A stretch of DNA of 20,203 nt from the NCBI GenBank assembly GCA_029907045.1, contig JARYMR010000013.1:1-20203 (forward strand), given 5' to 3'. This document shows, one piece after another, positions 2,593-13,462 of the stretch. Positions within the stretch are counted from its first letter, which is position 1. Each line of letters starts with the position of its first letter. The notes beneath the pieces are model-generated. The model did not search any database and was not told the origin of the DNA. It worked only from the letters and a program-made list of their open reading frames with translations. This DNA comes from Candidatus Bathyarchaeota archaeon. GTDB taxonomy: Archaea; Thermoproteota; Bathyarchaeia; Bathyarchaeales; UBA233. The position numbers were made by a program, and so were the translations under genes.

Positions 2593-3060
2593 TCACCTTT
2601 CCAAAAGGGAAGAGGATTCTGAAACCCAGCGGGCAGATGTTTTGCCCTTTTCATCTATGACATATTCTTTCTTGAAGATAGGCGCCTCCTTCTTGTACCT
2701 TTCAACGGCCTCTTCCAAAACTGGAAAGACATTTTTGCGGTGGGAGCCAGCAACTATGACGTATACCATTTCTTCGCCAACATTAAATTCGCCGAGTAAA
2801 TGGTGAATTTGAACGTTTACTATGCCCTCTCTCCGCTCCAAATCTTGACAGATTTTGGCTAAAACTTCATTTGCCTTCTCTTCATAGGCTTCTAACTCCA
2901 ACTTCTGAACTTTTTTCTCTTCTAATGTTTCTCCGCGAACCACTCCAATAAACAAGGCAATTGCACCAGCCTTCTCAAAATTCGGCAAATTTTTTAAATT
3001 TTCTATCGCTTCTAGAAGGGAAAATTTTCCTTTCTCATGAACTCCAGCGAAAGTTTTCAT
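2593..3060 (-). CDS. moaE: Molybdopterin synthase catalytic subunit MoaE
   Basis: MoaE and the thiocarboxylated small subunit MoaD convert cyclic pyranopterin monophosphate to molybdopterin, the precursor of the Mo/W cofactor. Family motifs are present in order: GAIALFIGVVRGET, LELEAYEEKA, the IHHLLGEFNVGE loop, SHR followed by F..LE.AV..YK, and APIFKKEY, which matches the usual PIWKKE with the conserved lysines kept. Length is normal at 155 residues from the ATG at 3060. This start has GGTG (3072-3069) eight bases upstream; a GTG at 3069 is possible but has a poorer ribosome site. No MoaD or other cofactor gene is in the window. The gene follows pxpC by a short gap and may share its transcript or use a TTTAATAG box near 3096-3103. 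Confidence 0.9.
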   Translation of the reverse strand: MKTFAGVHEKGKFSLLEAIENLKNLPNFEKAGAIALFIGVVRGETLEEKKVQKLELEAYEEKANEVLAKICQDLERREGIVNVQIHHLLGEFNVGEEMVYVIVAGSHRKNVFPVLEEAVERYKKEAPIFKKEYVIDEKGKTSARWVSESSSLLER

Positions 3061-3104
3061 GATAGGCACACCATGATATCATTGCTTCAGTTTTCTATTA
3101 AACG

Positions 3105-4058
3105 TTAATATGGCTTCTTCAATAGCATTCCGCCGAGGTTATTAAGCAGCCGGTGATAAGCTTTTGTTTTTTCATGGGCTGATTGCATTGAGATTTTGGA
3201 AAATGCTATAGTGTCGTTTGGTTTTGCTTGTCCAAGCATGGAAACGTCTGGCGTGATGGCTACTGCAATTTTTGGATAGCCACCCGTGGTTTGGGCGTCC
3301 CGCATTATCAGTATTGGTTTTCCATTTTTTGGAACTTGGATTGCTCCGGGCAAGAGGGCATCTGAAACAATGTCTGCTTTTGCCTTGTGCTCTATTGTTG
3401 GTCCTTCGAGTCTGTATCCCATGCGGTCCGCTTCTGATGTAACCGTGTATGGGTTTGATAGGAATGTTGTTATCCCATTTTCGGTAAACATGTCGGCTTG
3501 TGGTCCCAATACTACGTGAACTGTGAAGTTTCCAGTGTATTGTGGTATTAACGCTTCTGGCATTGCATATCCCATTTTAAGAGGTGGAGTGGCGAATCCT
3601 TCAATAATGTCTCCGCTCTTTAATTGTCTACCATTTATGCCTCCGAATCCGCCACGCACATAGGTGGATCTGCTTCCAAGCACCAGTGGCGTGTTTATTC
3701 CTCCTTTTATGGATAGGTATGCTCGGCATCCGCTCTTCATTTTGCCAAAAGAGATGACGTCTCCCTCTTTTACTTGTAGTGTTTGCCACATGGGGGCATT
3801 TTCGCCGTTAATTTTTGGTTCTGCGTCTCCGCCCGTTATTGCAATGGGGGTTTTTGTTAGAGCCTTAAGTTCTGGACCTATTAGGGTTATTTCTAAGCAA
3901 GCGTCGTTTGGGTTATTTTCAACCAAAAGGTTTGCTGCGATTAATGCGAAGGTGTCCATGGCGCCTGATATTGGCACGCTATATTTTAGATAGCCGTATC
4001 TTCCTAAGTCTTGAACTGTTGTGAACAATCCTGGCTTTAGAACTTGGAAAACCTGCAT
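3105..4058 (-). CDS. pxpC: 5-oxoprolinase subunit PxpC (biotin-dependent carboxyltransferase-like, KipA/YbgK family)
   Basis: This 317-residue subunit of the prokaryotic ATP-dependent 5-oxoprolinase works with PxpA and PxpB to open 5-oxoproline (pyroglutamate) to L-glutamate. Recognisable elements run in family order: the N-terminal KPGLFTTVQDLGRYGY, PISGAMD, ITGGDAEPKING, CRAYLSIKGGINTP, LGSRSTYVRGGFGG, then EADRMGYRLEGP and LPGAIQVP in the second half, and DAQTTGGYPKIA. The length is that of the family. The ATG at 4058 has GAGGATTAGG just before it, a good ribosome site, and follows the pxpB stop by a few bases. It is the last of the pxpA-pxpB-pxpC run. Confidence 0.92.
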   Translation of the reverse strand: MQVFQVLKPGLFTTVQDLGRYGYLKYSVPISGAMDTFALIAANLLVENNPNDACLEITLIGPELKALTKTPIAITGGDAEPKINGENAPMWQTLQVKEGDVISFGKMKSGCRAYLSIKGGINTPLVLGSRSTYVRGGFGGINGRQLKSGDIIEGFATPPLKMGYAMPEALIPQYTGNFTVHVVLGPQADMFTENGITTFLSNPYTVTSEADRMGYRLEGPTIEHKAKADIVSDALLPGAIQVPKNGKPILIMRDAQTTGGYPKIAVAITPDVSMLGQAKPNDTIAFSKISMQSAHEKTKAYHRLLNNLGGMLLKKPY

Positions 4059-4063
4059 TTAGC

Positions 4064-4801
4064 CTAATCCTCAAAGGTGGGTTTCCATTCGCCTTTTGAA
4101 ATAGCTTCTTCAATTGTTTTGAATTCGCTTTCAGAAATTGGTTTAAACTTCACAATATCGCCTGGGCTTAAAAGTGCTAGTGGATGCTGGAGTGAATTGA
4201 AGAGTTTTATTGGTGTTCTGCCTATTATTCGCCATCCGCCCGGCGCCTCGCAAGGATAGATTCCCGTTTGTTTTTCTGCTATGCCCACCGAGCCTTGTGG
4301 AACTTTTAGTCTTGGGGTTTCAAGGCGTGGTGTTGCAATTTCGTCTGGAACTTCTCCTAAATATGGGAAACCAGCGACGAATCCGATCATGTAAACCCTA
4401 TATTCCCTTTCAGAATGCAACCTTACAACTGTTTCTTCTGTTATTCCATGATATTTGGCGACAAACCCCAAGTCTGGTCCATACTCTCCGCCATAAACCA
4501 CTGGAACAATCAATTTTCTTCCTTCAATTTTGACTGCTAACTTGTTCAGATTTTTTTCAATGTCTTTGATTTGGAATACAAGTTGCTCATAATTGATTTT
4601 TAACGGGTTATAGCGGATGAGGAGCGACCGATATGTGGGAACTGTTTCTTCAACTCCTATGATGTTAGCTTTTGAAACTGCATTGTTTAAGGCTATTACT
4701 TTTTGGTTTGCTTCCAGACTTATTACTTCGCCAAACTCGATAACTAGAGCGCTGTCGCCGAAAGGCAAGTAACGGGCAGATTCGTAAATTTTCGCTTGCA
4801 T
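4064..4801 (-). CDS. pxpB: 5-oxoprolinase subunit PxpB (KipI/YbgJ family)
   Basis: This subunit of the PxpABC 5-oxoprolinase is a paralogue of KipI-type proteins. The N-terminal domain begins ARYLPFGDSALVIEFG. The C-terminal cyclophilin-like domain has GFVAGFPYLGEVP, ATPRLETPRLKVPQGSVG, and QTGIYPCEAPGGWRIIGRTP, all standard family signatures. I take the ATG at 4801 (245 residues), just past the pxpA stop with AAAGG upstream. A TTG at 4828, overlapping pxpA, would add nine residues that match nothing typical. Spacing to pxpA and pxpC indicates one transcript and one complex. No frameshift or missing motif is seen. Confidence 0.92.
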   Translation of the reverse strand: MQAKIYESARYLPFGDSALVIEFGEVISLEANQKVIALNNAVSKANIIGVEETVPTYRSLLIRYNPLKINYEQLVFQIKDIEKNLNKLAVKIEGRKLIVPVVYGGEYGPDLGFVAKYHGITEETVVRLHSEREYRVYMIGFVAGFPYLGEVPDEIATPRLETPRLKVPQGSVGIAEKQTGIYPCEAPGGWRIIGRTPIKLFNSLQHPLALLSPGDIVKFKPISESEFKTIEEAISKGEWKPTFED

Positions 4802-4811
4802 TGTTAAGCCT

Positions 4812-5585
4812 TTAAATAAAGTTGCCAACAGCCGTAACTTCTACTCCAGACTTAACCAGTTCCTTCTTCAAAACCTCTGTCAATTTTATAGCTGTGGGTG
4901 TGTCGCCATGCACGCAAATCGTATGCACTTTGCCTAAGGTTACGGTTTCGCCGTTGGCAGCCAAAACCTTTCCTTCCCTTATTACTTTTAGGGTTCTTTC
5001 GAGAACTGTGGATGGGTTTGTGATGATTGAGTTTGGTTGTTTTCTCGAGACGAGGGTTCCATCAGCATTGTATGCTCTGTCAGCAAAAAATTCGTATGCT
5101 ACACGCAATCCCGCATTGGTGGCAGTTTTAGCTAAGGCTGATTTTGGAGGTGCAAAAATTATGAGGCTTTTGTCTAATGCTTTAACTGCGTCTACTATTC
5201 CCTTGCTTGTTTCCTCATCTTTCACTGCTGTATTGTATAATGCTCCATGAGGTTTTACATGTTGAAGGTTTAAGCTAGCAATTTTTGCGAATCCTTGAAG
5301 AGCGCTTACTTGGTAAATTGTATAATTTCTAATTTCTTCCAAAGTTAGACGCATTTCTCTCCTTCCAAAACCAAGAAGGTCCGGATAGCCTGGATGGGCG
5401 CCCACTGCCACACCATGCTTTTTTGCTAGGTTCACTGTTTGCATTATTGTTGTTGGGTCGCCTGCGTGGAATCCGCATGCTATGTTTGCTGATGTTATGT
5501 GTGGCATTATTTCCTTGTCATTTCCAATTTTGAATGTTCCGTAGCTTTCGCCTAAATCACAGTTTATGTCTATTTTTAGCGTCAA
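4812..5585 (-). CDS. pxpA: 5-oxoprolinase subunit PxpA (LamB/YcsF family)
   Basis: The 257-residue protein shows the LamB/YcsF signatures: IDINCDLGESYG at the N-terminus, then SANIACGFHAGDP, VAVGAHPGYPDLLGFGRREM, LQHVKPHGALYN and, near the C-terminus, ICVHGDTP. In bacteria PxpA with PxpB and PxpC converts 5-oxoproline plus ATP to glutamate. The only start compatible with the conserved N-terminus is the TTG at 5585, preceded by GGGAT. It begins 19 bases after the stop of the oxidoreductase gene, so the four genes read as one operon. The predicted role is recovery of glutamate from 5-oxoproline formed spontaneously from glutamine/glutamate or from peptides. Confidence 0.92.
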   Translation of the reverse strand: MTLKIDINCDLGESYGTFKIGNDKEIMPHITSANIACGFHAGDPTTIMQTVNLAKKHGVAVGAHPGYPDLLGFGRREMRLTLEEIRNYTIYQVSALQGFAKIASLNLQHVKPHGALYNTAVKDEETSKGIVDAVKALDKSLIIFAPPKSALAKTATNAGLRVAYEFFADRAYNADGTLVSRKQPNSIITNPSTVLERTLKVIREGKVLAANGETVTLGKVHTICVHGDTPTAIKLTEVLKKELVKSGVEVTAVGNFI

Positions 5586-5604
5586 ATTTTATCCCATAAC
5601 ATGT

Positions 5605-6636
5605 TTATAGTGAAACGTATTTTCTCATGTCTTCCACGGCGGCGGAAGGCACCGGCAAGTCTTTCATTGTAACTAAGCCTGGCGGCGCCTTGATCACTTT
5701 TGGAATTGCGTTAACAACCATTGCCACTGTGCCTATGTCACCATGAACGCATGGCTGAATCCTCTGCTTTATAGTTGGGGTTCCATGGATTGTTATGGCG
5801 TCATACTCTTCTTCTGCTCCTATGTATGCTTGAAAATCGAGAATTATGACTTCTTTATTTTTGATTATTCCCTTCGCCTTTTGTCGTAAACCAGCAGCTT
5901 GACCAGCCTTAACTTTTATGTGTTCGCTTTCTACTGGTTTTTTGGCGATTACTGGTTCCGCTGGTTCAGCTATTATTTTGTCAAGCTTCCACGCTAAGGC
6001 GTCAGCTACTAAGGCAATGGACTGTTCAAGTCCCACATGCCCTGTGATTTGTTTGGTTTCAATTTTCTTTTGGAATTCTTCAAGAGTTAAGCCGGCACCA
6101 ATCTTTTTCTGGAATGGCAAGCGTCTGGTAGCAGCGTTCATGACTCTTACTGCTTCAATTTTCTCTATTTTTTGGCAAACAGCCGTGAGCGTTATCACCA
6201 ATGTGTCCATTAGAAAGCCCGGGTTTATGCCTGTGCCCAAAACGGTTGCGCCATGCTTTTTGGCAAGCGCGTCCAGTTCTTTTGCGATTTTTGGTTCGGT
6301 ATAGTATGGGTTGGAGAGTTCTTCGCATGTGGATACTATTTTGACGCCGTGTTTTATGAGTGTGGCTAATTGTTGATGTGTATCCTTTAGGAAGGAGGAG
6401 GTTGCGTGGATAGCTATGTCTGGTTTGGTTTTTGAAAGAACTGCATCCACATCACCTGAAATTTTAACGCCGACTTTCTTGTTTATGCTTAGAACTTCTC
6501 CCAAATCTTTTCCAACCTTATCTTTAGCAACGTCAATAGCCCCAACTATTTCCACCCCTTCCTTTTCAAGCAAAAATTTTGCGATTAAGCTGCCGACAGC
6601 CCCAACTCCAAAAATAGCAACTTTCACCTTCCTCAT
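5605..6636 (-). CDS. 2,4-diaminopentanoate dehydrogenase-like NAD(P)-dependent oxidoreductase
   Basis: This is a 343-residue Rossmann dehydrogenase. The nucleotide-binding GVGAVG lies at residues 10-15. HATSSFL (78-84), GTGINPGF (134-141) and the stretch RRLPFQKKIGAGLTLEEF (171-188) resemble the dihydrodipicolinate-reductase-like group that includes 2,4-diaminopentanoate dehydrogenase (Ord) of ornithine fermentation. The substrate is not certain; the other ornithine-pathway genes (OrA/OrB, OraS/OraE) are not in the window. I choose the ATG at 6636, because GGGAGG lies six bases upstream and a TATA-like GTTTATAGAG (6685-6676) lies at a suitable distance. The open frame extends to 6768, but that N-terminal part is low-quality sequence overlapping the promoter. 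It is the first gene of the pxpABC operon. Confidence 0.78.
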   Translation of the reverse strand: MRKVKVAIFGVGAVGSLIAKFLLEKEGVEIVGAIDVAKDKVGKDLGEVLSINKKVGVKISGDVDAVLSKTKPDIAIHATSSFLKDTHQQLATLIKHGVKIVSTCEELSNPYYTEPKIAKELDALAKKHGATVLGTGINPGFLMDTLVITLTAVCQKIEKIEAVRVMNAATRRLPFQKKIGAGLTLEEFQKKIETKQITGHVGLEQSIALVADALAWKLDKIIAEPAEPVIAKKPVESEHIKVKAGQAAGLRQKAKGIIKNKEVIILDFQAYIGAEEEYDAITIHGTPTIKQRIQPCVHGDIGTVAMVVNAIPKVIKAPPGLVTMKDLPVPSAAVEDMRKYVSL

Positions 6637-6675
6637 TTTTAGCCTCCCTTTTTGCTTATCCTCTATTGTTTTGTG

Positions 6676-6685
6676 CTCTATAAAC
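6676..6685 (-). promoter_or_regulatory. TATA-like box for the oxidoreductase-pxpABC operon
   Basis: The minus strand reads GTTTATAGAG, about 40 bases before the ATG at 6636. The expected transcript start near 6655 leaves a short leader containing the GGGAGG ribosome site. This supports 6636, not 6768, as the true start. Confidence 0.45.
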
Positions 6686-6718
6686 TTGTCTTCGGGGATA
6701 TGATGCTGGTTTTGACAT

Positions 6719-6744
6719 GGTTTAAAACCTTTACGTTTGTAAAC
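6719..6744. promoter_or_regulatory. Two adjacent dyads in the divergent promoter region (possible operator)
   Basis: GGTTTAAAACC at 6719-6729 is a perfect dyad around a central A. Six bases further on, GTTTGTAAAC at 6735-6744 is a GTTT/AAAC dyad with a two-base spacer. They lie between the start sites of two divergent operons, upstream of both genes. Such paired AT-rich dyads could bind a dimeric regulator; TTTAAAA could also be a TATA box for the plus-strand operon. The function is inferred. Confidence 0.3.
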
Positions 6745-6779
6745 TTTTATATTTTGGAGAAACCCCAATACTAAGGAGG
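6744..6779 (+). promoter_or_regulatory. Promoter element and strong ribosome-binding site of the hdr-kor operon
   Basis: CTTTTATATTTT at 6744-6755 is a TATA-like box, and AAGGAGG at 6773-6779 is a near-ideal Shine-Dalgarno nine bases before the TTG at 6789. The strong ribosome site decides that unusual start. The TATA box sits rather close, so transcription may instead start from the TTTAAAA upstream at 6721. Confidence 0.45.
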
Positions 6780-6788
6780 CTTAAAGGG

Positions 6789-8225
6789 TTGCAAACCACA
6801 GAAACTATAGTGTCCAAAGAAAACCTCAAAAGACTGTTAGACATTGAAAAATTAAAATACTGCTTTGAATGCGGCATCTGTACAGCCAGCTGTCCCATGG
6901 CAGAACTTTTGGGGAAAGACTACAATCCAAGAGGGCTTCTTGAAAAAATTTTCTTGAATCCCGAAAGTGTTCTAAATTCGGATGAGCTTTGGCTCTGCGC
7001 TTGGTGCTATCGCTGTTATAGACATTGTCCCCAAGCGCTTAAAATACCAGAAATCCTTCTTTTCATGCGAAAAACAGCTGCGGAGCACGGTTTTTTGGCA
7101 CCTCTCGAAAATGCCCTACAAAAAATAGTTGAAAACATTCCGATTCCCCTTGCAACAACGCTGGTTTGCTTCCACCCAGAACGTGTTGGATTGGATAAAG
7201 AGAAAATTCTTGAAAAGATTGAACAAATGCGCCTTGAACGTTTTAAGAAAAGAAAAAGAACAAAGGCAACAAAAAATTCTCAAAGAAAAATTGCGGTTAT
7301 TGGTTCTGGACCTGCTGGTCTCACAGTTGCTTATCAACTAGCTCAGAGAAAATGTAAAGTTACAATTTTTGAGGCGCTCCCAGAAGCTGGTGGAATGTTG
7401 CGGAGATGCATTCCAGAGCATCGTTTGCCAAAACAAGTTTTAGCCAAAGAAATCCAATTCATAAAAGATTTAGGCGTAGAAATAAGGACTGGCGTAACTG
7501 TTGGTAAAAATTTGAATTTTGAAGATTTATGGAATGAAGGCTACAAAGCCATTTTTATCGGCGCAGGTGCGCACGAAAGCCAAAAATTAAAAGTTGAAGG
7601 TGGAGATTTGGAAGGAGTAATTCACGCTCTCGACTTTTTATGGAAAATGAATTCTGGCGAAAAATTGGAAATGGGAAAAAACGTTGCTGTTATTGGTGGT
7701 GGAAACGTTGCAATAGATGCCGCAAGAACCGCACTGCAAAATGGAGCAAAAGAAGCGACAATGTTTTATCGTAGGTCAAGGGATGAAATGCCAGCAAACC
7801 CATGGGAAGTTAAAGAAGCAGAAGACAAAGGCGTGAAAATCGAGTTTCTAGTTGCTCCTAAGAGATTTTTGGGGAAAAATGGGAAAGTTTCATCCATCGA
7901 GTTTGTTCGTATGCAACTCGGCGAACCAGACGAGTCTGGCAGAAGGAAACCTATCCCAATAGAAGGTTCAGAATTCCCACGAGAAGCGGATATGGTGATT
8001 TTGGCGGTTGGAGAAATGCCAAACTTGACATTTTTGCCAAAAGAGATAGAGTTAAATGAGGATGGAACTGTTTGGGTTGACCCAATAACCATGGAAACAA
8101 GCTTACGAGGCGTTTTTGCAGGAGGGGATGCTGCAACAGGTCCAGCAACAGTGATTGAAGCGATTAAAGCTGGAAAACGTGTTGCAGAATCAATTGAAAA
8201 ATATTTGGAATCTTTAGGAGGATAA
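6789..8225 (+). CDS. HdrC-like [4Fe-4S] domain fused to GltD-like NAD(P)H/FAD oxidoreductase
   Basis: The protein has 478 residues. Residues about 20-95 hold two cluster motifs, C25-C28-C31-C35-P and C70-C73-C76-C80-P, spaced as in HdrC-type subunits (first motif CFECGICTASCPM). From 166 on it resembles the small subunit of glutamate synthase: FAD-binding GSGPAG at 172-177, LPEAGGMLRRCIPEHRLP, a second dinucleotide fold GGGNVA at 303-308 with YRRSRDEMPA (327-336), where NADPH-type binding is expected, and FAGGDAATGPATVIEA near the C-terminus. No glutamate synthase large subunit and no HdrB accompany it, so it is probably the NAD(P)H module of an HdrA-based electron-transfer complex. It starts with TTG, is first in the operon, and ends within the ribosome-site region of hdrA. 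NADH versus NADPH preference is not settled. Confidence 0.88.
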   Translation: MQTTETIVSKENLKRLLDIEKLKYCFECGICTASCPMAELLGKDYNPRGLLEKIFLNPESVLNSDELWLCAWCYRCYRHCPQALKIPEILLFMRKTAAEHGFLAPLENALQKIVENIPIPLATTLVCFHPERVGLDKEKILEKIEQMRLERFKKRKRTKATKNSQRKIAVIGSGPAGLTVAYQLAQRKCKVTIFEALPEAGGMLRRCIPEHRLPKQVLAKEIQFIKDLGVEIRTGVTVGKNLNFEDLWNEGYKAIFIGAGAHESQKLKVEGGDLEGVIHALDFLWKMNSGEKLEMGKNVAVIGGGNVAIDAARTALQNGAKEATMFYRRSRDEMPANPWEVKEAEDKGVKIEFLVAPKRFLGKNGKVSSIEFVRMQLGEPDESGRRKPIPIEGSEFPREADMVILAVGEMPNLTFLPKEIELNEDGTVWVDPITMETSLRGVFAGGDAATGPATVIEAIKAGKRVAESIEKYLESLGG

Positions 8226-8228
8226 GAC

Positions 8229-10637
8229 ATGACTGAAGGCGAGATTCGAATTGGAGTTTATGTTTGCCATTGCGGATTAAACATAGCTGGCTCTATAGAC
8301 TGTGAGGAAGTGGCAAAATATGCAGCAACCCTTCCTCACGTAGTTTTAGCTAAGGACAACCGTTACACATGCTCAGATCAAGGGCAAGAAATGATTAAAA
8401 AGGACATTAAAGAACATAGGCTTAACCGTGTTGTTGTAGCCTCGTGTTCGCCAAGGCTTCACGAACCAACTTTTAGAAAAACATGCGAGGATGCTGGTTT
8501 AAACAAGTATCTTTTTGAAATGGCTAACATACGTGAACAGTGCAGTTGGGTGCATTTGCATGATCGAAGGGCTGCTACTGAAAAGGCTAAAGATCTTGTG
8601 AAGATGGCCGTGGCTAAAGCTGCTTTGCTTCAACCAGCTGAAGAAATTGAAGTTCCAATTATTCAGGAAGCCCTTGTCATTGGCGGTGGAGTGGCTGGTA
8701 TTCAAGCGGCTTTGGATTTGGCTGATACTGGTTATAAGGTGTATTTGGTTGAAAAGGAGCCGAGCATTGGCGGAATGATGGCTCGCATAGACAAAACTTT
8801 TCCAACAATGGACTGTTCCATTTGTATTCTTGCGCCTAAAATGTCTGATGTGGGCCATCATCCAAAGATTGAACTTTTAACCAATAGTGAAGTTGTTGAT
8901 GTGAAGGGCTATATTGGCAACTTTAACGTTAAAGTTTTGAAAAAACCCCGCTACGTCAAAAGCGACTGCACAGCATGCGGAGAATGCGCCAAAGTTTGTC
9001 CAGTCATAGCTCCAAATGAGTTTGATGCTGGATTAGCCATAAGACATGCCATTTACACGCCTTTCGCCCAAGCTGTTCCCTCCACATACATAATTGATAT
9101 GAATAGATGCCTCAACAAAGACGGCGTAATCGCCTGCGACAAATGCATAAAGGCATGCGAAAGACAAGCCATAGACTTTGACATGAAACCAGAAACCATA
9201 GAACTTAAAGTTGGAACAATAATAGTGGCCATAGGCGCAGACGTATTCGACCCATCTACCTTACCGAATTATGGATATGGAAAATACCCAAACGTGATAA
9301 CTTCACTTGAATTCGAAAGGCTAATAAACGCTGGCGGTCCATCTGGTGGACATCTTATAAGACCAAGCGATATGCAGATTCCTCAACGTGTAGCCTTCAT
9401 CCAATGTGTAGGTTCCCGCTCAGACAGAAATGGAAGATTATATTGCAGTAACGTTTGCTGCATGAACACAATTAAAGATAGCTTGCTCATTAAGGAGCAT
9501 TGGCCTGAAACTGAAATTTACGTTTTTTACGTTGACATAAGGGCTTATGGAAAAGGCTTTGAAGACCTTTATAAGCGTGCAAAAAAGGAAGGCGCCATCT
9601 TCATCCGCGGGCTTCCAGCCGAAATCATAGAGGAGAGAAAAACCCATAATTTGTGGCTTATCGGCGAGAACACACTTCAGAAAGAATTGTACAAAATTAA
9701 TGTTGACATGGTAATCCTTTCTGTTGGTTTGGAGCCGAGAAAGGACAGCGAAATCATCCAGCGATTATTAACATTATCACGGACTCAAGACGGCTTCTTC
9801 ATGGAAGCACATCCAAAACTTAGACCAGTCGATGCTGCCACGGGCGGAATATTCTTTGCTGGATGCGCTGAAGCACCCAAGGACATAAAAGATAGCGTAA
9901 CACAAGCAAGCGCTGCCGCTGCTAGAGCTGGCATTTTGATGGCTAAGGGAAAAGTGACTGTTGAAGCCATTACTCCAATTTCTTATGCCGATAAGTGTAA
10001 GGCTTGTGGGCTTTGCACAAAAGTTTGTCCTTACAATGCTATAACATTAAACAAGGAGTTAAAACGCATAGAAGTTATTGAGGCTGCTTGTGGCGGATGT
10101 GGAACCTGCGCAGCAGAATGCCCCTTTGATGCCTTAACCCAAAATCACTTCACAGACGAACAAATCTTAGCGCAGATAGACGTCGTAACGGAGTTTGATG
10201 CTGAAAAGAAAATTGTCGCCTTCTGCTGCAACTGGTGCGCTTATGCTGGCGCAGACTTTGCCGGCGTCAGCCGAATGCAATATCCCCCAAATGTGCGAAT
10301 AATAAGGACCATGTGTTCTGGGCGAGTGGCTCCAAAATTCATAGAAAGAGCCTTTGCAAGGGGAGCCGCAGCCGTTTTAGTGGCTGGTTGCCATCCCGGG
10401 GATTGTCATTACATAAATGCTAATTATCATACCAAAAGGCGTGTGGAACGTTTCTGGGAGAAAATGAAGAAAAATGGACTAAACAAGGAAAGATTACAGC
10501 TATTATGGGCTACGGCGGCTGAGGGCGAAAGATTTGCTTCAAAAATCCGTGAAATGCAAGCTATAGTGGAAAAGGTCTCTAGAGAAGAGATAGAAAATGG
10601 CAAAAAAGTTTTTGAAAAAGCCTTAGGTGGAAGTTAG
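8229..10637 (+). CDS. hdrA: HdrA-like flavin/iron-sulfur subunit fused to MvhD-like [2Fe-2S] domain
   Basis: This 802-residue protein is an HdrA, the FAD subunit that performs electron bifurcation in heterodisulfide reductase complexes. The N-terminal domain has GVYVCHCGLNI. FAD-binding GGGVAG is at 152-157, and TMDCSICILAPKM at 193-205. A ferredoxin-like insert has C247-C250-C253-C257-P and C294...C303-C306-C310. CVGSR is at 393-397 and SNVCCMN around 407-413. A second two-cluster ferredoxin domain has C590-C593-C596-C600-P and C621-C624-C627-C631-P. Residues about 660-780 match MvhD, with Cys at 666, 667, 670, 696, 721 and 726 for a [2Fe-2S] centre. HdrA-MvhD fusions are known, for example in HdrA2 of Methanosarcina. 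AGGAGG lies just before the ATG. HdrB and hydrogenase subunits are absent, so the physiological partner is likely the adjacent oxidoreductase. Confidence 0.93.
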   Translation: MTEGEIRIGVYVCHCGLNIAGSIDCEEVAKYAATLPHVVLAKDNRYTCSDQGQEMIKKDIKEHRLNRVVVASCSPRLHEPTFRKTCEDAGLNKYLFEMANIREQCSWVHLHDRRAATEKAKDLVKMAVAKAALLQPAEEIEVPIIQEALVIGGGVAGIQAALDLADTGYKVYLVEKEPSIGGMMARIDKTFPTMDCSICILAPKMSDVGHHPKIELLTNSEVVDVKGYIGNFNVKVLKKPRYVKSDCTACGECAKVCPVIAPNEFDAGLAIRHAIYTPFAQAVPSTYIIDMNRCLNKDGVIACDKCIKACERQAIDFDMKPETIELKVGTIIVAIGADVFDPSTLPNYGYGKYPNVITSLEFERLINAGGPSGGHLIRPSDMQIPQRVAFIQCVGSRSDRNGRLYCSNVCCMNTIKDSLLIKEHWPETEIYVFYVDIRAYGKGFEDLYKRAKKEGAIFIRGLPAEIIEERKTHNLWLIGENTLQKELYKINVDMVILSVGLEPRKDSEIIQRLLTLSRTQDGFFMEAHPKLRPVDAATGGIFFAGCAEAPKDIKDSVTQASAAAARAGILMAKGKVTVEAITPISYADKCKACGLCTKVCPYNAITLNKELKRIEVIEAACGGCGTCAAECPFDALTQNHFTDEQILAQIDVVTEFDAEKKIVAFCCNWCAYAGADFAGVSRMQYPPNVRIIRTMCSGRVAPKFIERAFARGAAAVLVAGCHPGDCHYINANYHTKRRVERFWEKMKKNGLNKERLQLLWATAAEGERFASKIREMQAIVEKVSREEIENGKKVFEKALGGS

Positions 10638-10639
10638 CT

Positions 10640-10924
10640 ATGCCCGTCAGACTTTGGCGCACACCATTAGACTCTGAAAAAGTGAAGCTTCCAAAAGCAG
10701 AAATTCACATACTAAAAGATCAATGTAAGGGATGCGGTTTCTGTATTCATTTTTGTCCCAAAAAAGTTTTGGAAGAATCTGAAGAAATAAATGCCAGAGG
10801 GGTTCATCCTCCAAAAATTGTTGACGAAAGCAAATGTATTCTCTGCAGTTTTTGCACTTCAGTTTGCCCAGACTTCGCAATTTTTGTTGTTGAAAAACCA
10901 TGTAAAGAGGGATGTCAAACATGA
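10640..10924 (+). CDS. korD: 2-oxoacid:ferredoxin oxidoreductase delta subunit, 2[4Fe-4S] ferredoxin-like
   Basis: This 94-residue ferredoxin-type subunit carries C29-C32-C35-C39-P and C66-C69-C72-C76-P, so two [4Fe-4S] clusters. The segment NARGVHPP between them is typical of delta subunits of KOR/VOR-type enzymes. It passes electrons from the thiamine-diphosphate/Fe-S core to ferredoxin or, here, perhaps to HdrA. It begins two bases after the hdrA stop, and its stop TGA overlaps the korA start in an ATGA arrangement, which implies coupled translation and fixed stoichiometry. Confidence 0.9.
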   Translation: MPVRLWRTPLDSEKVKLPKAEIHILKDQCKGCGFCIHFCPKKVLEESEEINARGVHPPKIVDESKCILCSFCTSVCPDFAIFVVEKPCKEGCQT

Positions 10925-12072
10925 GTAGAAAAGGAGTAATCCTCGAAGGTAGCCACTTCATGAATGGCGATATTGCCTGTGCAGAAGGTGCCATAGCTGC
11001 TGGTTGCAGATTCTTTGCTGGTTATCCTATAACGCCGGCGACAGAAATCGCCGAACATTTAGCCCAACGCATGCCCGAAGTTGGCGGAATATACATTCAA
11101 ATGGAAGACGAATTAGCCTCAATGGCAGCAATTATAGGCGCATCCTATGCAGGCGTAAAGGCTATGACCGCTACTTCTGGACCAGGTTTTAGTTTAATGC
11201 AAGAAAACATAGGATTAGCCGTGATGACGGAAGCTCCATGCGTTGTCGTGGATGTTATGCGTGGCGGACCCAGCACTGGACAGCCCACATTACCCGGACA
11301 GCAAGATGTTATGCAAGCCAAATGGGGCTCTCATGGAGATTATGAAATAATAGCCCTAGCGCCTTCTTCTGTCCAAGAAATGTTCGACTTAACTATTGAA
11401 GCCTTCAACCTTTCCGAAACCTACAGAGTTCCAGCCATAGTGTTAGCTGACGAAGTGGTTGGACACATGTGGGAAAAAGTCGTGATTCCTCCCGCTGAAA
11501 AAATAAAAATAGTGAACCGAAAAAAGGCAAATGTTCCATCAGAATCTTATGCGCCCTTCATGCCTGATGACGATTTGGTTCCGCCAATGGCATGTTTCGG
11601 AGAAGGCTACAGCTTTCACGCTACAGGCTTAACGCATGATGAGCATGGTTATCCACAAACATCCAGCTCTGAAGCCCAACAAAAACTTGTAAAAAGACTT
11701 TGTGATAAGATTAGGAAAAATGCGGATAAAATAATCAGGGTTGAAGAGGTTATGTTAAGCGATGCCGATATAGCGGTTATAGCCTATGGAATAGTTGCCA
11801 GAGCCGCGTTAAGCGCCGTGAGAAAGGCTAGAGCAGAGGGAATAAAGGCTGGGCTTCTACGCCCAATCACTTTATGGCCTTTCCCAGGAAAGTATGTAGC
11901 CAAAATAGCCAAACAAGCAAAGGCCATAGTGGTTCCGGAAATGAACTGCGGTCAGCTAGTGCGGGAAGTGGAGAGGGCAGCAAAGGAAACACCTGTTACT
12001 TTTATTTCCAAATTGGGAGAAGAACCTCATACGCCAATGGAAATTCTCGAGGCAATAAGGAGGAATAGCTGA
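10921..12072 (+). CDS. korA: 2-oxoglutarate:ferredoxin oxidoreductase alpha subunit
   Basis: At 383 residues from the ATG at 10921, the length fits KorA. Visible signatures are EGAIAAGCRFFAGYPITPATEIAE, MEDELASMAAIIGASYAG, KAMTATSGPGFSLMQE, RGGPSTGQPTLPGQQD, and HGDYEIIALAPSS, all typical of the alpha subunit that supplies pyrimidine-domain contacts for thiamine diphosphate. I use ATG 10921, with GAGGG nine bases upstream and an ATGA overlap with korD; an ATG at 10912 would have almost no spacing. The C-terminal half (VIAYGIVARAALSAV, LLRPITLWPFP) is the transketolase-C-like domain. Specificity for 2-oxoglutarate is inferred from similarity to KorA and could be another 2-oxoacid. Confidence 0.92.
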   Translation: MSRKGVILEGSHFMNGDIACAEGAIAAGCRFFAGYPITPATEIAEHLAQRMPEVGGIYIQMEDELASMAAIIGASYAGVKAMTATSGPGFSLMQENIGLAVMTEAPCVVVDVMRGGPSTGQPTLPGQQDVMQAKWGSHGDYEIIALAPSSVQEMFDLTIEAFNLSETYRVPAIVLADEVVGHMWEKVVIPPAEKIKIVNRKKANVPSESYAPFMPDDDLVPPMACFGEGYSFHATGLTHDEHGYPQTSSSEAQQKLVKRLCDKIRKNADKIIRVEEVMLSDADIAVIAYGIVARAALSAVRKARAEGIKAGLLRPITLWPFPGKYVAKIAKQAKAIVVPEMNCGQLVREVERAAKETPVTFISKLGEEPHTPMEILEAIRRNS

Positions 12073-12911
12073 TGGAAACTGAAATGGTGCATCCTTTTGC
12101 AAAATACCTACGGGAAGCCATGATGCCTCACATTTGGTGTTCAGGATGCGGCAATGGCATAATCCTAAACTGTTTCGTTCAAGCCGTAGACGAGCTTCAA
12201 ATAGACCTAAACAAGCTTGTTGTTGTGTCTGGCATTGGATGTATTGGACGAGCAGCCGGATATGTCAACACTAACTCTTTTCACACAACTCACGGACGCC
12301 CAATAGCCTTCGCTACTGGAGTAAAATTGGCAAATCCAGAACTGGAAGTGGTAATTATCAGCGGTGATGGCGACCTCTTCGCCATAGGAGGAAACCATTT
12401 CATACATGCGGCTCGGAGAAACATTGGAATCAAAGTTATCTGCGCAAACAACTTCAATTATGGAATGACAGGCGGACAACAAGGACCAACAACACCAATT
12501 GAGGCTTTAACAACCACAACCCCCTACGGAAACATTGAACACCCCTTCAATCTGGTGCATTTGGCAGCAGCCTCAGGCGCCACTTATGTGGCTAGGTGGA
12601 CAACTTTGCATGTGCGAAGGCTTACACAATCTATTAAAAAATTGTTGCAGAAGGAAGGTTTCGGCTTTATTGAGGTTGTTTCGCCTTGTCCAGAAATTTT
12701 TGGTCGCTATAATAAAATGCGCACTGGACTTGAGATGATGGAATGGTTTAGAAAAGCTTCCGCGATAGAAAACTTTTCCGACCCGGCAAAAGCAGAAATT
12801 ACACCAGAAAGGATAGTGGTCGGAGAATTTGTTGATATAGCAAAAGTCAGTTATGAAAGGCTGATTCATGAAAAAATTGCTGAAATTAATGAGAAGAAAA
12901 TGGGATGGTGA
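12072..12911 (+). CDS. korB: 2-oxoglutarate:ferredoxin oxidoreductase beta subunit
   Basis: The 279-residue thiamine-diphosphate-binding subunit has the TPP motif SGDGDLFAIGGNHFIHAARRN (GDGD at 98-101) ending at N126-N127. Cysteines 23, 26 (WCSGCGNG), 57 (GIGCIGR) and 208 (SPCPE) are placed as the ligands of the proximal [4Fe-4S] cluster in this enzyme family. GNHFIHAARRNI is close to what I know of 2-oxoglutarate-type KorB, so succinyl-CoA formation from 2-oxoglutarate, or the reverse carboxylation, is the best guess. The ATG overlaps the korA stop by one base (TGATG), and AGGAGG lies upstream inside korA. Confidence 0.92.
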   Translation: METEMVHPFAKYLREAMMPHIWCSGCGNGIILNCFVQAVDELQIDLNKLVVVSGIGCIGRAAGYVNTNSFHTTHGRPIAFATGVKLANPELEVVIISGDGDLFAIGGNHFIHAARRNIGIKVICANNFNYGMTGGQQGPTTPIEALTTTTPYGNIEHPFNLVHLAAASGATYVARWTTLHVRRLTQSIKKLLQKEGFGFIEVVSPCPEIFGRYNKMRTGLEMMEWFRKASAIENFSDPAKAEITPERIVVGEFVDIAKVSYERLIHEKIAEINEKKMGW

Positions 12912-12916
12912 TTTGA

Positions 12917-13462
12917 ATGCGGATTGAAATTAGGTTTGCGGGTTTCGGCGGTCAAGGAATCATCAAATCTGGAATAATCACAGCTACAGCAGCATGCATA
13001 TACGGCGGAAAAAATGCTGTTCAAACCCAGTCTTATGGTCCAGAATCAAGGGGTGGAGCATGCAAATCAGAAGTTGTGATTTCAGAGGAAGAAATAGACT
13101 TTCCAAAGGTTGTTGAACCCGAAATCCTTGTGGTGATGTCTCAGCACGCCTATAATGAATATGCAGAAAACGTGAAGACAAGGGGAACAATAATTTTGGA
13201 CCCAGACATGGTTCCCCACGAAAAAGAACTAAAAAATGTTAGAATCTTCAAAGTTCCAGCCACAAAAATTGCTGAGGAGCTTGGAAGAAAGATAGTTGCG
13301 AACATTGCCATGTTAGGCGCCTTTGTGGCTATTACAGGCGTGTTGGATAAAGAGGCTGTAAAAGAATCCATTAAGGTGAATGTGCCAAAGGGTACCGAAG
13401 AACTGAATTTAAAGGCTTTTGAAAAAGGATACGAATATGGCAAAAACCTGTTGAAAAGCTAG
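12917..13462 (+). CDS. korC: 2-oxoglutarate:ferredoxin oxidoreductase gamma subunit
   Basis: The 181-residue gamma subunit has the family's N-terminal GFGGQG at 9-14 (FAGFGGQGIIKSG), then QTQSYGPESRGGACKSEVVIS and the VVMSQ strand. The gamma domain contributes to CoA handling and subunit assembly in 2-oxoacid:ferredoxin oxidoreductases. It starts five bases after the korB stop with GGTGAT as ribosome site and closes the six-gene operon. Its stop is only two bases from the stop of the convergent eS1 gene. Confidence 0.92.
   Translation: MRIEIRFAGFGGQGIIKSGIITATAACIYGGKNAVQTQSYGPESRGGACKSEVVISEEEIDFPKVVEPEILVVMSQHAYNEYAENVKTRGTIILDPDMVPHEKELKNVRIFKVPATKIAEELGRKIVANIAMLGAFVAITGVLDKEAVKESIKVNVPKGTEELNLKAFEKGYEYGKNLLKS

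Follow-up and report, generated by a model that had tools for sequence, protein, structure and literature searches.

An HdrC-GltD/HdrA2/KorDABC operon of Bathyarchaeia: a candidate portable adaptor between NADP(H), ferredoxin and 2-oxoacid oxidoreductase

Background

Gene clusters that combine genes for a 2-oxoglutarate:ferredoxin oxidoreductase (Kor) with genes for heterodisulfide reductase (Hdr) subunits have been described in bacteria. In tubeworm symbionts and Thioflavicoccus mobilis, flx-hdrABC genes are interspersed with korABCD and tfrAB and are proposed to feed electrons to Kor; the general idea of Hdr bifurcation feeding Kor is already published for the symbionts in that account (PMC6315080). 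Co-expression has been reported as well, with KorABCD placed between HdrA and HdrBC (PMC11636981). Here we describe a six-gene operon, HdrC-GltD/HdrA2/KorDABC, on a 20,203-nucleotide contig stretch (hereafter the window; contig JARYMR010000013.1 of assembly GCA_029907045.1) of Candidatus Bathyarchaeota archaeon. It represents a new variant of the Kor-Hdr linkage that lacks HdrB and is probably NADPH-linked, and its HdrC-GltD/HdrA2 part is better described as a separable, exchangeable adaptor for Kor or for CO dehydrogenase/acetyl-CoA synthase (CODH/ACS). This genome is represented by the window, and genome-wide searches refer to related genomes.

The operon resembles the Flx-Hdr/Kor cluster, for which bifurcating electron delivery is proposed, in having kor genes beside hdr genes and an NAD(P)H-linked module. 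That cluster, however, belongs to Gammaproteobacteria with reverse tricarboxylic acid cycle genes and encodes FlxABCD and separate HdrBC, whereas the Bathyarchaeial operon has neither Flx nor HdrB, its HdrC being fused to GltD and its MvhD to HdrA. The HdrA-MvhD architecture is that of HdrA2B2C2 of Methanosarcina (PMC5296606; type Ia in PMC12054007, where HdrA types Ia and III are defined), and the protein scores above the cut-off of the NCBIfam HdrA2 model NF040770 (1276.6 against 1100 bits); unlike the Methanosarcina enzyme, it has no HdrB, and its partner is Kor or CODH/ACS. Type III HdrA also brings HdrA and GltD together in one system, with proposed use of NAD(P)H and with one class in Bathyarchaeota (PMC12054007). 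There, GltD is inserted into HdrA and interpreted as NADH-type, and mvhADG is part of the Bathyarchaeota cluster, whereas the GltD described here is part of a separate HdrC fusion with its own open reading frame (ORF), has a GxGxxA motif and is Kor-linked, inserted forms occurring only in other proteins. A term search of the main text of PMC12054007 returned no oxoglutarate, ketoglutarate, oxoacid or kor. An NfnB-like insert has been reported for HdrA of ANME-1 archaea (PMC9012536), and a GltD domain for HdrA of Moorella (PMC9430772).

The best sequence and fold matches of the GltD part are with Nfn, NfnABC and Stn (PDB 5jca, 4ylf, 9bov, 9n5u and 8oh5), in which a GltD-type NADP(H) flavoprotein is likewise wired to ferredoxin. 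In those enzymes the partner flavoprotein is of the NfnA or NuoF type rather than HdrA, and the N-terminal cluster domain is not HdrC-like. All four subunits of the four-subunit enzyme KorDABC are present (nearest solved structures 1yd7 for alpha and 8ys5 for beta); the extra N-terminal tail on KorD and the Hdr unit in the operon set it apart from the usual KorDABC. No description of this arrangement or of the KorD tail was found in the parts of the open-access literature searched, a scope outside which most subscription papers fall.

The six-gene operon

The operon is confirmed and comprises the following genes:

6789..8225, plus strand: HdrC-GltD fusion, 478 residues, TTG start with AAGGAGG just upstream
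8229..10637, plus strand: HdrA2, i.e. HdrA with a C-terminal MvhD/FlpD domain, 802 residues
10640..10924, plus strand: KorD, two-[4Fe-4S] ferredoxin with the N-terminal tail LWRTPLDSEK, a candidate docking tail
10912..12072, plus strand: KorA, alpha subunit of 2-oxoacid:acceptor oxidoreductase (NF006412, above cut-off)
12072..12911, plus strand: KorB, beta subunit binding thiamine pyrophosphate (TPP) (best model NF007207, below its cut-off)
12917..13462, plus strand: KorC, gamma subunit (NF006323, above cut-off)

All six ORFs are intact and lie exactly where the original prediction had placed them. Its statement that overlaps and gaps do not exceed five bases is valid except for KorD and KorA, which with these starts overlap by 13 bases. 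The fusion of an HdrC-like domain to a GltD-like flavoprotein is borne out by Pfam and NCBIfam matches and intact motifs; the HdrA-MvhD fusion is also present but, as the NF040770 match indicates, it is not unusual. The 2-oxoacid:ferredoxin oxidoreductase is complete, as had been claimed, with alpha, beta, gamma and delta subunits and their TPP and ferredoxin domains recognised by Pfam and NCBIfam. Models for 2-oxoglutarate enzymes are the best ones for KorD (OGOR_delta) and KorB, both under their cut-offs, and general 2-oxoacid models are matched above cut-off by KorA and KorC.

The operon genes, four upstream genes and 13 further ORFs of the window, two of which had no match at all, were scanned against Pfam and/or NCBIfam. 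Neither HdrB, hydrogenase, formate dehydrogenase or GltB nor an NfnA (PyrK-like) or NuoF-like partner could be identified among these genes. The hallmark of an HdrABC heterodisulfide reductase, an HdrB with CCG domains encoded alongside, is not found in the operon.

Conservation of the gene order

The gene order was followed in a class sample of 151 genomes, drawn evenly with a minimum completeness of 80. A GltD match at E <= 1e-90 was found in 43 of these, and 23 of the 43 were counted as having an HdrC-GltD orthologue, defined by an identity of 50% or more across almost the entire protein. HdrA2 adjoins HdrC-GltD in all 23, and 19 also encode Kor of the window clade; the six genes are in order on one contig in 17 of the 19, and in G068 and G124 a contig end interrupts the locus. 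The same order is found in three more Bathyarchaeial genomes (G002, G003 and G004), whereas a phylum-wide draw of 398 genomes gave 14 matches at E <= 1e-120 that were all already in the class draw. When 23 loci were compared, all six genes were in order on one strand in 21, including one (L121) whose korC is cut short by the contig end, and the remaining two were again cut by contig ends. In the window the genes overlap or are almost contiguous, and the matched regions are at most 92 bases apart in the relatives. The best named relatives of HdrC-GltD are proteins of Bathyarchaeial metagenome-assembled genomes (88-91% identity), which marks the window as Bathyarchaeial by protein similarity.

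Outside this class, a survey of 227 genomes from the phylum to which a Thorarchaeal genome belongs revealed a single complete six-gene operon with the KorD tail (L174, 170-6900). This Asgard copy is possibly a transfer; a mere binning error is less likely, because a record named from Atabeyarchaeia (P0239, a 2.8 Mb contig) also has a tail-bearing KorD. The survey thus shows the six-gene order to be conserved in Bathyarchaeia, by which a chance neighbourhood is ruled out.

The HdrC-GltD and HdrA2 proteins

HdrC-GltD contains two HdrC-type CxxCxxCxxxC motifs (C25-C35 and C70-C80, eight cysteines in all), the FAD motif GSGPAG, the NADP-type motif GGGNVA and the sequence YRRSRDEMP. The eight cysteines and GGGNVA are invariant among 24 aligned HdrC-GltD proteins, that of the window included, and GSGPAG is invariant save for one nearly invariant position. 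GxGxxA is taken as an NADP-type motif (PMC12054007, PMC7483475), and we infer that the HdrC-GltD/HdrA2 unit is probably NADPH-linked, with NADP preferred over NAD. An AlphaFold model of HdrC-GltD (mean predicted local distance difference test score, pLDDT, 79.8) had the GltD subunits of Nfn, NfnABC and Stn as its best Foldseek matches; it says little on the HdrC part, since its weakest stretches include the first cluster motif.

The protein is clearly similar to the GltD-like NADP(H) subunit of Nfn; none of the curated models for GltD and related proteins reaches its cut-off. A role as small subunit of glutamate synthase is ruled out by the absence of a strong GltB match in 24 of 26 carriers, in agreement with the earlier claim that the large subunit is missing. 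A strong, nearly full-length match to the GltB core family PF01645 was found in only two of the 26 related genomes, both without a linked Kor, and short partial matches above the family cut-off, in 25 of the 26, look like other proteins. The double HdrC motif is present in free-standing archaeal HdrC-GltD fusions, and no listed GltD-HdrA insert has it, a motif distribution that weighs against HdrC-GltD being a cut-out of a type III HdrA. Exceptions are one free-standing fusion with a late called start (L129), which lacks the double motif, and several long GltD proteins without HdrA, which have it.

HdrA2 aligns over residues 5-651 with methanogen HdrA, and its E363 and K416 correspond to E356 and K409 there. 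This E/K pair (Methanothermococcus thermolithotrophicus numbering) has been described as a marker of the bifurcating HdrA flavin (PMC9430772). The pair is kept in the window and in all 28 other aligned HdrA rows (29/29), and by this measure HdrA2 is of the bifurcation type, bifurcation itself being a prediction. Of 26 full-length HdrA2 orthologues, 24 retain the complete set of 36 cysteines, whether the partner is Kor, CODH/ACS or a polyferredoxin; the exceptions are a Thr at C546 in L004 and two cysteines that lie ahead of the called start in L122, and one contig-cut protein (L163) was compared without its N-terminal part. In the HdrA of other Kor-Hdr sets (L152 and L162) several cysteines differ and MvhD is not part of the protein. 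The cluster cysteines and the FAD and NAD(P)H motifs are therefore not only intact, as first noted, but also conserved. The HdrA2 of G004, flagged with an in-frame stop in the genome search, proved to be an intact ORF in L144.

Kor without the adaptor and the adaptor without Kor

Kor of the window clade (E <= 1e-140) is encoded in 37 of the 151 class genomes, and 18 of these lack HdrC-GltD. The surroundings of all 18 were inspected: 16 have no Hdr gene beside Kor in the visible stretch, and two have other Hdr sets. In four loci KorDABC is present while the upstream HdrA2/HdrC-GltD is absent, with neighbours in common with the window on both sides (L145, L146 and L148) or downstream (L151). Another (L150) has the downstream neighbours of the window; its contig ends inside korD, so that the adaptor is absent by whole-genome search. 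Two loci carry relics: in L147, HdrC-GltD residues 1-115 and HdrA2 residues 745-795 precede an intact KorD, with unread bases nearby in the assembly, and in L149, HdrC-GltD residues 2-52 lie directly before KorD. The remaining nine (L153-L161) have no Hdr gene beside Kor in the visible stretch, which for L158 and L160 covers less than about 1 kb upstream. In a KorABC tree of 49 rows made by a quick method, adaptor-free L145-L148 are grouped inside the starred adaptor clade and L149-L151 make up another starred group next to it, suggesting that at least two losses of the adaptor are likely.

The two other Hdr sets differ from each other. One locus (L152, 2423-9817) has a single run of KorABC, HdrA, MvhD and [NiFe]-hydrogenase genes that lacks HdrBC, the hydrogenase models being below their cut-offs; judged by its genes, it may encode a hydrogen-linked Kor. 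The other (L162, 1982-10000) has KorABC, HdrA, MvhD, HdrC and HdrB, followed by what by eye resembles a plant-type ferredoxin, and is a third Bathyarchaeial Kor-Hdr arrangement.

The adaptor is also found with other partners. In G015, HdrC-GltD, HdrA2 and a KorD-like ferredoxin sit between cdhA-cdhB and cdhC of a CODH/ACS operon (cdhB and cdhC above family cut-offs, cdhA in two ORFs), and Kor is encoded elsewhere with its own KorD. A polyferredoxin follows HdrA2 in G151, G077, G088 and L003, the HdrA2 of the last being split over two ORFs. G004 has a second HdrC-GltD copy (L006, 8717-14220) whose neighbours are an FrhB-type protein and two HdrA-like ORFs, the latter spanning an HdrA between them; from these neighbours the copy is possibly F420-linked.

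An obligate Kor-Hdr complex is ruled out by the adaptor-free Kor operons and the relics, and the original interpretation is borne out only in part, an exchangeable adaptor being a better description than a complex dedicated to 2-oxoglutarate: the unit occurs without Kor, beside CODH/ACS or a polyferredoxin, and Kor occurs without the unit. Regular unlinking of kor and hdr genes had been named as evidence against the original proposal, and it is found in part, with no Hdr gene in view beside Kor in 16 of the 37 Kor genomes; Kor-Hdr linkage nonetheless recurs.

A counterpart in Neomarinimicrobiota

A match to a 767-residue GltD protein (E <= 1e-150) was found in nine of 120 genomes of the phylum of a Neomarinimicrobiota genome. 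Six of the nine loci (L164-L169) have KorC immediately upstream of GltD and an HdrC-HdrB fusion downstream; L171 shows KorD, GltD, MvhD, HdrC-HdrB and the start of HdrA, L170 the HdrC-HdrB fusion alone in view, and L172 is a different HdrA-GltD protein. Longer stretches (L019, L037, L175 and L176) have the order KorDABC-GltD-HdrCB-HdrA, and their HdrA is interrupted at a single point: in L019 (10404-12881) an in-frame TGA is found at the codon equivalent to C197, and in the other three the gene is split at about the same place. By inference, the TGA in L019 is probably read as selenocysteine. In two of these genomes HdrA shares 59-61% identity with that of the window, compared with at most 55% for the other full-length HdrA of four Bathyarchaeial genomes in the same search. 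HdrC is fused to HdrB in Neomarinimicrobiota and to GltD in the window, which supports GltD standing in for HdrB. The original suggestion that the GltD half could take the place of the usual HdrA partner agrees with the gene structure, in which an NAD(P)H-type GltD, fused to the HdrC-like domain, occupies the position expected for HdrB.

A tail on KorD

KorD of the operon has a tail ahead of its first cluster, with the consensus WRxPLDxxK (core WRxPLD). All 25 rows that contain either the unit (23 rows, Bathyarchaeial) or its Neomarinimicrobiota counterpart (two rows) carry the tail, and 19 of 20 other rows lack it, the exception being the relic L147; the 20 include the two loci with other HdrA sets (L152 and L162) and three distant Kor (L141, L053 and L062), and the count omits L137, L139, L140 and L159, for which no KorD was found. 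The ferredoxin of the CODH/ACS operon of G015 retains the tail with no KorABC beside it, and in Neomarinimicrobiota a tail-bearing KorD (L171) adjoins GltD with no KorABC in view. The tail therefore follows the HdrC-GltD/HdrA2 unit and not Kor. In protein searches the strict pattern was seen in 110 of the best 120 of 584 matches to the window KorD, with near variants in the other ten, and a looser pattern in 106 of the best 120 of 211 matches to a Neomarinimicrobiota KorD, with near variants in the other 14. From these patterns the WRxPLD tail is a candidate docking site.

The distribution of the tail bears on a view that we regard as unlikely, namely that Kor works on free ferredoxin while HdrC-GltD/HdrA2 is a soluble ferredoxin:NADP+ oxidoreductase, co-transcribed for balance without forming a complex. 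The presence of Kor alone in relatives and of the unit beside other ferredoxin-linked genes would agree with this. However, the tail degenerates in loci that have lost the unit and is retained next to CODH/ACS where no Kor adjoins, the genes are tightly spaced both in the window and in the relatives, and Kor-Hdr linkage recurs with different Hdr sets. The closest relative (G154), moreover, already has a canonical-looking Nfn pair elsewhere, as described below.

Proposed mechanism and direction of the Kor reaction

We propose, with about as much confidence as doubt, that HdrC-GltD together with HdrA2 acts as a portable adaptor connecting NADP(H) and ferredoxin with a CO2-handling enzyme of low potential, in this case Kor, which would be docked onto HdrA2 or HdrC-GltD through the WRxPLD tail of KorD. 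Electrons would pass between KorD, the MvhD [2Fe-2S] cluster, the HdrA flavin, the HdrC clusters, the GltD FAD and NADP(H), and the inserted ferredoxin domain of HdrA would be the exit to, or the entry from, free ferredoxin. With GltD in the position of HdrB, NADP+ would take the place of the disulfide. In most carriers Kor would probably be reductive, converting succinyl-CoA and CO2 to 2-oxoglutarate, with one electron each from NADPH and reduced ferredoxin; such confurcation would spare half the ferredoxin. In its most specific form, which we put forward only tentatively, this would be an HdrB-less confurcating archaeal adaptor that delivers one electron each of NADPH and ferredoxin, via the WRxPLD-tail ferredoxin, to whichever CO2-reducing enzyme bears it, for most carriers Kor and for a single lineage CODH/ACS. 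In operons with an added fumarate reductase pair, 2-oxoglutarate could be made with NADPH as the sole donor, the reaction being driven by reduction of fumarate.

The direction is suggested by the distribution of citrate synthase (PF00285), which is found in none of 22 genomes with a Kor-linked unit and in all four with the unit but no linked Kor. Class-wide, all 37 Kor-clade genomes lack it, and 40 of the 114 remaining genomes have it, two of the 40 being weak matches (Fisher p 2.3e-6, relatedness ignored). Its absence from the Kor-clade genomes favours synthesis of 2-oxoglutarate by carboxylation. Divergent to the operon lie conserved neighbours that provide context outside the proposed complex:

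3105..6768, minus strand: PxpABC (5-oxoprolinase) and a 2,4-diaminopentanoate-dehydrogenase-like protein

The dehydrogenase-like gene scores 346.6 bits against a cut-off of 400, and its real start is probably near 6636. These genes are beside the operon in many relatives, and also in three relatives without an intact Hdr unit. In Neomarinimicrobiota L175, citrate synthase adjoins the Kor-Hdr cluster. Both pxpABC and this citrate synthase suggest that the direction of Kor may differ between lineages.

Several points weigh against the docked, reductive adaptor. Kor persists without the adaptor in relatives and hence does not need it. The tail pattern was defined after inspection of the sequences, and a sign test on independent pairs, tail against adaptor, was not significant (three pairs, p 0.25). 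The tail is not a general HdrA docking signal, since L152 and L162, with other HdrA sets, have none, and some tail-bearing matches to the Neomarinimicrobiota KorD are, by record name, from other bacterial groups. Uptake of glutamate or peptides, or a Re-citrate synthase, would also explain the missing citrate synthase, and the adjacent pxpABC fits glutamate breakdown. By standard potentials, finally, 2-oxoglutarate synthesis with NADPH and ferredoxin is slightly uphill.

An alternative is a wire without bifurcation, which we consider a possible but doubtful arrangement. The set would then be an NADP(H)-linked 2-oxoglutarate oxidoreductase comparable to phenylglyoxylate:NAD+ oxidoreductase (Pad): electrons from 2-oxoglutarate would run down one chain, from KorD over HdrA2 and HdrC-GltD to NADP+, with the HdrA flavin as a relay. 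Oxidation to NADP+ is downhill, the pxpABC neighbours of many relatives could supply glutamate, and a high-potential acceptor such as HdrB is not encoded in the operon. On the other hand, the E/K pair of the bifurcating flavin is kept in all HdrA rows and the cysteines of the ferredoxin domain are kept in the orthologues, and the missing citrate synthase favours the reductive direction. The Pad family models, too, speak against this arrangement; they are far under their cut-offs (PadG 85/700, PadI 45/700, PadE 58/300 and PadF 26/150 bits), for which reason a Pad-like enzyme was rejected, and the literature search gave no match for a Pad-like enzyme of this kind.

If the adaptor works as proposed, CO2 fixation at 2-oxoglutarate synthase or CO dehydrogenase would consume less ferredoxin, and Hdr would prove able to exchange its heterodisulfide site for NADP+. 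This uncultured archaeal lineage encodes a CO2-fixing or CO2-releasing enzyme alongside a removable unit that probably ties it to NADPH. The natural deletions and the CODH/ACS copy offer ready-made contrasts, and the KorD tail is a small, testable interface.

HdrB, hydrogenase and Nfn genes in related genomes

The absence of HdrB, hydrogenase and formate dehydrogenase, noted at the outset, applies to the scanned genes of the window; HdrB-type and hydrogenase-type genes are found elsewhere in relatives. HdrB-type (CCG) domains were detected outside the six genes in all 26 related genomes searched. Such genes had been named as candidates that could pair with this HdrA and so speak against an HdrB-less system; they do exist, but the HdrB-type proteins viewed in G154 adjoin other HdrA genes. 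Eight CCG matches were counted in this genome, and those viewed are HdrB in a GltD-HdrA-MvhD-HdrC-HdrB-hydrogenase cluster (L136), HdrB after HdrA-HdrC (L137), a 369-residue protein that resembles HdrC-HdrB and is encoded divergently from a further HdrA (L177), and, also in L136, a TfrB-like protein. The HdrB models are below their cut-offs, none of the CCG proteins viewed is an orphan, and the hydrogenase-type genes of G154 are in another Hdr cluster. Exchange of HdrB between Hdr sets is possible in this genome.

In a borrowed-subunit scheme, the unit would take from elsewhere either HdrB or a TfrB-type subunit of fumarate reductase with its HdrB-like C-terminus, and disulfide or fumarate reduction would drive low-potential electrons into Kor. 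The CCG-domain proteins of all 26 genomes would provide for this, and in G135 a tfrA/sdhA-tfrB pair lies directly upstream on the same strand (L125, 12790-16077; flavoprotein above cut-off, TfrB model 338 bits against 385). An HdrC-HdrB fusion is part of the Neomarinimicrobiota cluster, and in the tubeworm symbionts tfrAB accompanies korABCD and flx-hdrABC (PMC6315080). Nevertheless, a directly upstream tfr pair was seen in this one locus only, the TfrB-like gene of L119 being several kilobases upstream, the G154 proteins adjoin HdrA genes of their own, and HdrC of the operon is already fused to GltD; we regard such borrowing as highly improbable.

The L136 cluster (2913-11973) and a similar one in L138 (5721-15559) encode a GltD protein of 570-587 residues, an MvhD-like protein, a long HdrA, MvhD, HdrC, HdrB and [NiFe]-hydrogenase genes, with parts of the small and large hydrogenase subunits fused in one ORF in L136. 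From gene content, these operons may encode an enzyme linking NAD(P)H, H2 and a disulfide. The Nfn pair of G154 (L177, 3000-5346) consists, by eye, of a GltD-like protein of 475 residues and a PyrK-like protein of 315 residues, and because of it the HdrC-GltD unit is not the sole NADP-linked ferredoxin enzyme of the closest relative.

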